This document shows positions 18,375 through 21,000 of a stretch of 64,000 nt of DNA, in pieces. The translations under genes were made by a program, and so were the position numbers. Positions within the stretch are counted from its first letter, which is position 1, and each line of letters opens with the position of its first letter. The DNA is taken from positions 613,632 to 677,631 of the forward strand of contig JAIXQR010000001.1 of the NCBI GenBank assembly GCA_027485645.1, given 5' to 3'. This DNA is from a bacterium (GTDB lineage: Bacteria; Armatimonadota; Fimbriimonadia; Fimbriimonadales; Fimbriimonadaceae). The notes under the pieces were generated by a model. It had not been told where the DNA came from. It saw nothing but the letters and a program-made list of their open reading frames with translations, and did not search any database.

Positions 18375-19601
18375 TTACTCATTTGGGAACCGAAGGAACT
18401 CCGCCAGTGCGCGGAGTTCTTCTGGTTTTAGGGTGGGGAAACCTGGCATCGTTGAACCTGGCTTAATCTCTTTCGGGTTCTTGATGTAGGTCACGTAGTA
18501 GAAAACATCGGACCGCTTTTTGTACGATTCGGCCAGGCTCGGGCCGGTGGTGCCGACCTTTCCATCCTGCCCGTGGCACGCGACACAAGAGTTTGAGTTG
18601 AAGACCCTGCGACCCATCGCGGCAAGCTGAGGGTCTTTGATGTCGTTTTGCTTGGCGATGGTCGCTATGGAAGCAGGATCTCGCTTTCCGGTCAGCGGGG
18701 CCGGTTGGCCGCCGTGGAGAAGGGTGATGCCAGAGAACAGCAGGGTGGCACCGACAAGGAACCATTGAGCGACCTGCTGGGAAACCTTCAAGACACCAAT
18801 GCCGAGGATCGCCGCAAAGATTGCGCCCGGTAGCAAGACCGCCCCAAGCCAGCCGCCGCTCCGCATCAGACCGTCGGTCCAAACGAGCATGGCATGAGCC
18901 GGAAGGGTGTACCAACTGGCGAGAGCATCAAACTTCCCGGCGTCGGCAACGGTTGCCTGGGTACCGATCGGACTTTGAACGACGAACGACGTGAGAAAGG
19001 CAACGGCCAGTCCTCCCGCCGCAGCGGCCCAATTGGGCTCGCCTTCGCGTTCTCGAACGTACGACGAGATCAGGACGATGGCGAGGACCACGAAGAGGGC
19101 AGGAAGTACGAAGCGGTGCAACTCGTACCAAAGCGTCAGGGTCGACTGCGACACGCCCTTTCCGCCGAGAATGGCTTCCATGAGCGTTTTCCCAACGCCG
19201 GGTACGCGCCCAGCAATGCTGCCTTCGATCGCGGCGGTCTGAACGGCGTGCCGATCCCAGGGCAAGATGTTGCCGGTCAATTGGAAGGCGAGCGCCAGGA
19301 GAAACAGAAAAACGTTCCCGACGAACTGGGTTTGGCTTTTGTGGATGTAGCTTCCGGTCCATAGTCCGGCGGCTACGGCGAGACCGCTGACGATAATCAG
19401 AACGGCGCTTGCCCAATAGTGGAAGCCCTGCAACATGCCGAAAGTCGAATCAAAGTGCATGGCCTGGACGCTCTTGTGCGCCCCTCCCGTGGTGGCGACG
19501 TAGCGCGTGCCGATGGCGATTCCAACCGCAATCTGACTCACCATGAGAATGAGCGCGGCTGCCCCCAGTGTTGCTACATGATCCGTTTTTTGATTTGCCA
19601 T
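18375..19601 (-). CDS. Cytochrome b/b6-like protein fused to cytochrome c, with one b-heme site missing
   Basis: A 408-residue membrane protein: helices like the cytochrome b6/subunit IV core (about residues 10-295) followed by a c-type heme domain with Cys339-Cys342-His343 and Met385 in STMPGF. LPWDRH and GVSQSTLTLWYELHRFVLP match the cytochrome b6 Qo region and helix D. The bL ligands His61 and His162 are in place. The positions 14 residues on, where bH ligands belong, hold Ala75 and Val176/Leu177. The PEWY motif appears as ASWY (228-231), so its Glu is lost. A quinol-to-c role is expected for the family, but a full Q-cycle looks impossible. No Rieske gene is nearby. ATG 19601 is preferred over an upstream start at 19634. 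Confidence 0.82.
   Translation of the reverse strand: MANQKTDHVATLGAAALILMVSQIAVGIAIGTRYVATTGGAHKSVQAMHFDSTFGMLQGFHYWASAVLIIVSGLAVAAGLWTGSYIHKSQTQFVGNVFLFLLALAFQLTGNILPWDRHAVQTAAIEGSIAGRVPGVGKTLMEAILGGKGVSQSTLTLWYELHRFVLPALFVVLAIVLISSYVREREGEPNWAAAAGGLAVAFLTSFVVQSPIGTQATVADAGKFDALASWYTLPAHAMLVWTDGLMRSGGWLGAVLLPGAIFAAILGIGVLKVSQQVAQWFLVGATLLFSGITLLHGGQPAPLTGKRDPASIATIAKQNDIKDPQLAAMGRRVFNSNSCVACHGQDGKVGTTGPSLAESYKKRSDVFYYVTYIKNPKEIKPGSTMPGFPTLKPEELRALAEFLRFPNE
18395..18424 (+). terminator. Hairpin terminator inside the coding tail of the facing cytochrome gene
   Basis: A perfect nine-base-pair stem pairs 18396-18404 with 18411-18419 and is followed by a pyrimidine-rich tract. It lies 30 bases beyond the stop of the plus-strand lipoprotein gene and also within the last codons of the minus-strand cytochrome gene. 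The placement suits termination on the plus strand. Confidence 0.6.
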
Positions 19602-19734: not shown

Positions 19735-21000
19735 ATGAGTTTAGATAGAAACCCGCTACAAACGAGGTTAGCGGATGGTTCGGGGGGGCAGTTTGACCTG
19801 ACCGAAGACACGGTCGACCAGATGCTTGCGCTTGCAGAGCGCTTGCGGATGTCGAACGGAGGAGTGCTGGACGACGACGCCATTCAGGCGGTCGCCGAAG
19901 CTACCGGTGCGCCAACTGAGTACGTTCGACTCGCCGTTAAGGTCCGAGCCGAAAAAGAGAATCGCAGCCGTCTCTCGAATCTTCGGGCTCAGTTCCTGAC
20001 CCTTGATCCCGAAACAAGACGCATGGTGGCGGTGGGCACCATGGCGACGGTCTGTGCCTTCCTGTTCGCGCTGGAGTACCGCCTTGGCCCAGCCGTGAGC
20101 CAATACGGCGTCTTGAGCATGGTTGGCTTGATTGCGCTCTCGCTGGGGCTGTATCAGGTCGCGCTTTCAAAGGACGTGAAATGGGCCGGTGCGAACGGCG
20201 CCATTCTTGGTGGCGCGTTCTTCGGCATGTACGCGGTGTTCTCGTTGGTGATGCAATCGGCGATGAGAATTTATGCGCCGGCTATTTTGCCGATCATGAT
20301 TGGCGGTGGAATCGCGGGTGCCTTGTTGAAGAAGGCGGTTGAAAAGAATCGCGACAGCCTCGGTCTGCGCGATCCGATTCAAGAGCGTCAAGAGTTGCTC
20401 GCGCAGTTGGTTGAGCTTCAGGACCGACTCCGAAGCGGAGAGCAGAGCGTCACCTTCCTGAGCGTGGACATTGTTGGGTCCACGAAAATGAAGCTGAAGG
20501 CTGACCTCTTGGCGGTTGAGTACACGTTCACCGAGTACCACGGCTACGTGGAGCGCATTACGGTGCGATACGGCGGTCGTGTTCACAGCACGGCCGGTGA
20601 CGGCGTCACTTGCGCCTTTGATCACCCGCATCAGGCTTTTGCGGCGGCCAAAACGATTCAATCCGGCTTGTTCGAGCTGAACACCTTCCGGAATCGGCTC
20701 GGTTCGCCGATCACGCTTCGGTGTGGCGTGCATACCGGCACGGTGGTCACGCCGCAGGGCGGAGACATTAAATCGCTCAACTTTTCGCATGTCATCGACG
20801 TGGCCGCGACGATTCAAAAGTATTGCCCTCCGGGAGGCGTGGCAGTGACCGAGGCGAGTGTGATGTACTTGCCCGGCGGCGCTACCGCAGTTGGGGAAGA
20901 AATGATCGAAGCCGCGGATACGCGAGCCGCGATTTGGCGCCCGAAGGCGATGGTTACGGCAGGTTCGGCCGAGCAGACTCCACCCCTTCCGGCGGTCTGA
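19735..21000 (+). CDS. Membrane class III adenylate/guanylate cyclase-like protein
   Basis: A 421-residue protein: an N-terminal cytoplasmic helical region (1-95), four hydrophobic helices (about 100-205), then a cyclase homology domain. Both metal-binding aspartates are present, Asp245 in SVDIVGST and Asp289 in AGDGV, and VHTGTV follows. However, where active enzymes have Asn-x3-Arg for the transition state, this one has Asp355 and Thr359 (VIDVAATIQKY). It may be a weak or atypical cyclase, or a nucleotide sensor. SD AGAAGG precedes ATG 19735. It diverges from the cytochrome fusion over 133 bases and is followed after six bases by an unknown gene. Confidence 0.8.
   Translation: MSLDRNPLQTRLADGSGGQFDLTEDTVDQMLALAERLRMSNGGVLDDDAIQAVAEATGAPTEYVRLAVKVRAEKENRSRLSNLRAQFLTLDPETRRMVAVGTMATVCAFLFALEYRLGPAVSQYGVLSMVGLIALSLGLYQVALSKDVKWAGANGAILGGAFFGMYAVFSLVMQSAMRIYAPAILPIMIGGGIAGALLKKAVEKNRDSLGLRDPIQERQELLAQLVELQDRLRSGEQSVTFLSVDIVGSTKMKLKADLLAVEYTFTEYHGYVERITVRYGGRVHSTAGDGVTCAFDHPHQAFAAAKTIQSGLFELNTFRNRLGSPITLRCGVHTGTVVTPQGGDIKSLNFSHVIDVAATIQKYCPPGGVAVTEASVMYLPGGATAVGEEMIEAADTRAAIWRPKAMVTAGSAEQTPPLPAV

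Follow-up and report, generated by a model that had tools for sequence, protein, structure and literature searches.

The domain anatomy, residue conservation and gene neighborhoods of a cytochrome b-c fusion from the Fimbriimonadaceae suggest a complex III that has been stripped of its Q-cycle. Cytochrome b and the Q-cycle are usually regarded as inseparable. The family to which this protein belongs seems to have lost heme bH, the Qi site and the Rieske protein and to have remained under strong selection. We consider it reasonably probable that the protein is a stand-alone membrane quinol:cytochrome c reductase that descends from a Rieske/cytochrome b-c complex, uses only the p-side half of cytochrome b and runs no Q-cycle. 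The gene lies in a stretch of 64,000 nucleotides of contig JAIXQR010000001.1, referred to here as the window.

By sequence, the gene product is a fusion of cytochrome b6, subunit IV and cytochrome c. Its gene lies on the minus strand (18375..19601; all protein features below are on this strand), running from an ATG at 19601 to a stop codon at 18375-18377, and it encodes 408 amino acids. A cytochrome b6-like N-terminal half leads into helices resembling subunit IV, and a cytochrome c domain forms the C-terminus. The membrane part covers residues 10-300 (18702..19574), where PF00033, the b6 alignments and hydropathy segments indicate a b6-like four-helix bundle and then the subunit-IV-like helices. 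Residues 10-176 match Cytochrome_B (PF00033) above the cut-off (2.2e-22), the window protein aligns with the solved cytochrome b6 1q90 in HMMER (4e-21), and the family profile matches the solved b6 2zt9 (1.5e-38). These matches place the protein in the cytochrome b/b6 superfamily, and they bear out the alignment with cytochrome b6 that had been claimed in a first-pass annotation. The C-terminal CxxCH domain reported there is also found. Residues 327-403 match a cytochrome c domain (PF13442, 8e-10) that contains the heme c attachment motif CVACH (C339-H343, 18573..18587). C339, C342, H343 and M385 (18447..18449) are invariant in the family alignment, as expected of a c-type cytochrome, and M385, which is followed by an invariant proline (M385-P386, 27/27), is likely the sixth ligand of heme c.

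The protein does not fall into the named families that were compared. Its best NCBIfam match is cytb_ExtP, from a selenite/tellurite cluster of Geobacter, with a score of 103.3 against a cut-off of 290 bits, and its score for cytochrome b6 (PRK03735) is 99.2 against a cut-off of 325 bits. ExtP is partnered by a Rieske protein, ExtO (PMC5877670). The window protein has no match to NrfD and so does not belong to alternative complex III. AlphaFold models of the window protein and one relative had a mean pLDDT of 37.6 and were not used, and the Qo geometry described below is based on alignment.

The fusion proteins form an undescribed family that is confined to one class among the stronger matches. 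A class-wide search found orthologs in 29 of 113 genomes, in families f1, f2, f3 and f5; this count leaves out a canonical homolog in G036, and the copy in G070 has a split frame. In a phylum-wide search no match above 300 bits lay outside the window's class, and next in score came the canonical G036 protein and, from outside the class, other cytochrome b-c fusions. A contig scan with the window protein as the single query matched only L004. The conservation results rest on an alignment of 27 members, with identity down to 28%, and on a comparison with 23 canonical cytochrome b sequences that have all four heme ligands. Residues invariant in the family include H61, G110, P114, E126, W158, H162, W230, Y231, P234 and H236, in addition to the heme c residues. 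A natural cytochrome b without bH was not reported in the open-licence papers covered by a limited search. In the split copy (L132, G070:C1:2779900-2781500) the b half and the c half are in different frames, and the near-identical gene of G069 is intact; the split is a recent frameshift or an assembly error.

The ligands of heme bL are kept, while those of heme bH are lost. H61 in helix B (19419..19421) and H162 in helix D (19116..19118) align with the bL ligands of solved b6 and are present in 27/27 members. The bH positions hold A75 in helix B (19377..19379) and V176/L177 in helix D (19071..19076), residues that the first-pass annotation had numbered correctly and that the alignments to solved b6 confirm. 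Histidine occurs at both positions in all 23 canonical sequences, but in the family it is found in five of 27 members at the helix-B position and in none at the helix-D position. The full set of four histidine ligands for two b hemes, as in complex III, is therefore absent. The helix-D ligand is missing from every one of the 27 aligned orthologs, even at 28% identity, so its loss is not due to chance. The first-pass annotation asked whether the same residues are missing in all homologs; they are at helix D but not at helix B, where five members (L006, L007, L011, L014 and L019) have a histidine that lacks its helix-D partner. No alternative alignment restores the bH ligands: histidine occurs in at least half of the family only at columns 42, 61, 118, 162, 236 and 343, and of these only 61 and 162 are at b-heme ligand positions.

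Other conserved features are lost from the n-side of the membrane. We take glycines 13 and 96 to pack on bH, and glycines 27 and 110 on bL. The bL-side glycines are kept (G27, 19521..19523, 26/27; G110, 19272..19274, 27/27). Glycine at position 13 falls from 23/23 in canonical sequences to 9/27 in the family, and at position 96, which is N96 in the window protein (19314..19316), from 23/23 to 1/27. The n-side loop between helices D and E is shortened and lacks the Lys/Asp pair (Lys251/Asp252), which has a role in the Qi site (PMC5001787). In the family the p-side halves of the helices are more conserved than the n-side halves (0.60 vs 0.44, p = 8e-5), while in canonical homologs the same comparison is not significant (0.77 vs 0.72, p = 0.08).

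The glutamate of the PEWY motif is usually replaced, but it is not the defining loss of the family. The window protein has A228-S229-W230-Y231 (18909..18920), as first described. Among the 27 members the motif is PMWY in seven, VSWY in five, PEWY in four, PSWY in three, and ASWY, PNWY, PAWY and PGWY in two each. Thus WY is invariant, and the second residue is Glu in 4/27 and otherwise Ser, Met, Asn, Ala or Gly. Natural variation at this residue has been reported (PMC9162462). The glutamate is lost in 23 of 27 members, but the weight that the first-pass annotation gave to it has to be corrected. PEWY is kept in four early-branching members, and the losses of bH, of Qi and of a Rieske partner are therefore independent of it.

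Judged from the alignments, the defining changes around the Qo site are gains of E126, H236 and H118, which the first-pass annotation did not include. E126 (19224..19226) is found in 27/27 members, where 22 of 23 canonical sequences have Gly. H236 of WYxxPxH (18894..18896) is also present in 27/27, at a position that is Tyr or Phe in all 23 canonical sequences. H118 (19248..19250) is present in 25/27 and is Lys, Leu or Arg in canonical proteins, and T122 is gained in 26/27. By motif spacing, H118 corresponds to M154 and H236 to Y302 of Rhodobacter capsulatus, both part of a published Qo model (PMC10583091). E126, eight residues past H118, corresponds to R. capsulatus I162 and bovine I146; the latter is a Qo contact and, like bovine Y278, is assigned to the Qo site (PMC12820957). 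For turnover in R. capsulatus, either one of two protonatable residues close to the quinol suffices (PMC10583091), and this makes acid/base substitutes for the PEWY glutamate chemically plausible.

Another feature not considered in the first-pass annotation is the absence of a Rieske partner. A loose regular expression covering variants of the Rieske motif recovered 7/7 positive controls and gave no match in the window or in 28 family neighborhoods, some of which are on short contigs. The window's genome has a single PF00033 match, and its only Rieske match is an oxygenase-type protein, so that no bc-type Rieske protein is found either near the gene or in the genome. G016 has no Rieske match at all, and 16 of the 29 family genomes lack any other cytochrome b match. 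Several small Rieske proteins were judged by eye not to be of the bc type: G014 (L128) and G045 (L130) have theirs beside molybdopterin-type and 4Fe-4S ferredoxin genes, and in G015 the neighbor is a nirB-like gene. Similar Rieske frames of 167 amino acids are present in genomes without any cytochrome b match.

Relatives that retain a Rieske gene suggest the order in which these features were lost. Rieske and b-c fusion complexes of Armatimonadota (L042, L045, L108-L112) share the b-c fusion order with the family, but they have four heme ligands, PEWY and an adjoining Rieske gene, and they are likely the ancestral type. A Rieske gene adjoins each of the out-of-class b-c fusions that were fetched (G186 was judged with a stricter Rieske pattern only). 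In a maximum likelihood tree built without the main trait columns, the family is one clade (95/86), sister to L117 and L118 (99/97). These two proteins, which come from outside the class and were likewise not part of the first-pass annotation, are an evolutionary intermediate, in which the bH ligands are gone and the Rieske gene is still adjacent, immediately upstream. They share E126, T122, Q107, W158 and H236 with the family, but differ from it in having AEWY, a longer n-side D-E loop, and Ser or Asn in place of H118. The 23 members without the glutamate form one clade (100/99), and the PEWY members branch early at a fork that the tree does not settle; exact placements are uncertain because branches within the family are long. 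The simplest order is that bH was lost and E126 and H236 were gained with the Rieske protein present, then the Rieske protein and most of the Qi loop were lost, and then the PEWY glutamate was replaced. Loss of bH seems to have occurred a second time, independently and with the Rieske gene kept, in L115 (G211:C98, 1683-3152), a Rieske-adjacent b-c fusion with PDWY in which both bH histidines are replaced (Tyr, Phe). Its sister L116 retains both.

The gene is under strong purifying selection and is not a relic. Compared with a 90% identical ortholog (L004/L005), dN is 0.063 and dS is 1.60, giving a dN/dS of about 0.04, which is in the range of neighboring genes; a dS value greater than 1 lacks precision, yet the ratio remains far below 1. 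The bL, heme c and Qo-region residues are invariant in 27 sequences across the class, and the reading frame is intact in nearly all members. Several canonical residues are lost and branches are long, as they would be in a decaying remnant of a lost bc complex, but in view of this evidence decay is hardly credible, and the receptor-like relic offered as an option in the first-pass annotation is contradicted.

The other option in that annotation, electron flow from quinol through one b heme to a fused c heme, is the reading best supported by anatomy, conservation and selection. The protein has one b-heme site and one c-heme site, and we infer that both would be occupied. Menaquinol would bind in the rebuilt Qo pocket, where E126, H236 and usually H118 may replace the PEWY glutamate network in binding and deprotonating it. 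Electrons would pass to the single heme b at the bL position, then to the fused heme c with His/Met ligands, and from there to a periplasmic acceptor, for example the caa3-type oxidase. Protons would be released on the p-side, with no movement of electrons across the membrane. Lacking bH, a Qi site and a Rieske partner, the protein could not run a Q-cycle. Menaquinones MK-10 and MK-11 have been found in Fimbriimonas ginsengisoli (PMC4072686), which is probably one of the carriers of the family (G015). It counts against a quinol:cytochrome c reductase that these genomes already encode another enzyme for this reaction, alternative complex III, and that sequence cannot prove that quinol, as opposed to another small molecule, is the substrate.

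The pocket residues and the direction of flow admit other readings. The protein might bind heme b and heme c and yet accept a non-quinol substrate, or a metal on E126, H236 and H118, since two histidines and one glutamate at positions that line Qo in homologs could form a metal site. This is unlikely: H118 is missing in two members, the three side chains may not converge, and E126 and H236 are already present in the Rieske-adjacent AEWY relatives and PEWY in four members, which suggests continued quinol chemistry. A reading in which a metal ion or some new proton/electron gate takes the place of the Rieske cluster in the rebuilt p-side pocket is very improbable; if true, it would be a new type of quinol-oxidizing center on a single-heme cytochrome b. 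Reverse flow, from periplasmic donors through heme c and then heme b, with quinone reduced in the altered Qo pocket, would use identical anatomy. Sequence is silent on direction, and the acidic and histidine side chains could take up protons as well as release them. It is nevertheless quite unlikely, because the invariant Met-Pro suggests a high-potential heme c, menaquinone is low-potential, the reaction would be uphill, and no donor gene is linked.

Gene neighborhoods bear on two further possibilities. The most frequent conserved neighbor is a membrane protein with a cyclase-type domain (19735..21000, plus strand, PF00211), which is adjacent in about a dozen genomes and divergent in several genera, and the cytochrome could be a redox sensor of the quinone pool or oxygen status that perhaps signals to it. 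However, cyclase homologs are found in 89 of 113 genomes. Many of these genomes lack the cytochrome, and in several that have it the two genes are unlinked. The mutS2 and lipoprotein genes of the region are also syntenic, and neighbors differ in f2 and other families. A sensor is thus very unlikely, and the cyclase gene is linked but probably separate in function. The surveyed neighborhoods contain no conserved operon partner that points to a donor or acceptor. In the window's genome one cluster encodes alternative complex III and then a caa3-type oxidase, and both complexes are near-universal in the class, so that partners would always be available if the cytochrome were an accessory electron-transfer or structural subunit of their supercomplex. 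This role is highly unlikely, as the gene is outside that cluster, away from the NrfD gene, and most genomes with the complexes do without it.

A single-heme quinol:cytochrome c reductase would differ from each of the known systems. Like cytochrome b6f-type complexes, the family has the b6-like four-helix bundle, the bL ligands and glycines, an LPWD-type cd region, the WY of the Qo motif and the b6 plus IV layout. Unlike them, it has a fused cytochrome c and the new residues E126, H236 and H118, it lacks bH ligands, Qi elements and a Rieske partner, and its Qo glutamate is usually replaced. Alternative complex III (NrfD-type) has an unrelated fold, unrelated subunits and no b heme. It resembles the proposed enzyme in carrying out Rieske-free quinol:cytochrome c reduction outside a Q-cycle, and it is encoded in the same genome. 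The closest engineered parallel is R. capsulatus H212N, a bH-knockout cytochrome bc1 in which the bL branch is present without bH and Qi is inactive (PMC4330944), but this is a laboratory mutant that retains the Rieske protein and a normal Qo site. The family would raise the questions of how quinol can be oxidized without the PEWY glutamate and why a cell with alternative complex III keeps a second quinol oxidizer outside the Q-cycle. Together with the living intermediates, it would permit tests of the contributions of bH and the Rieske protein.

Multiheme arrangements are also found among the related proteins. Two frames of about 1090 amino acids that match the family profile (L052 and L053, in G027 and G030) have eight CxxCH motifs, and a Rieske gene and a separate cytochrome b lie next to them. 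In L131 (G187:C121, 10095-12865) a Rieske gene precedes a cytochrome b whose fused c part is multiheme, with 15 CxxCH motifs; this fusion keeps the four b-heme ligands and adjoins a protein with 11 CxxCH motifs.
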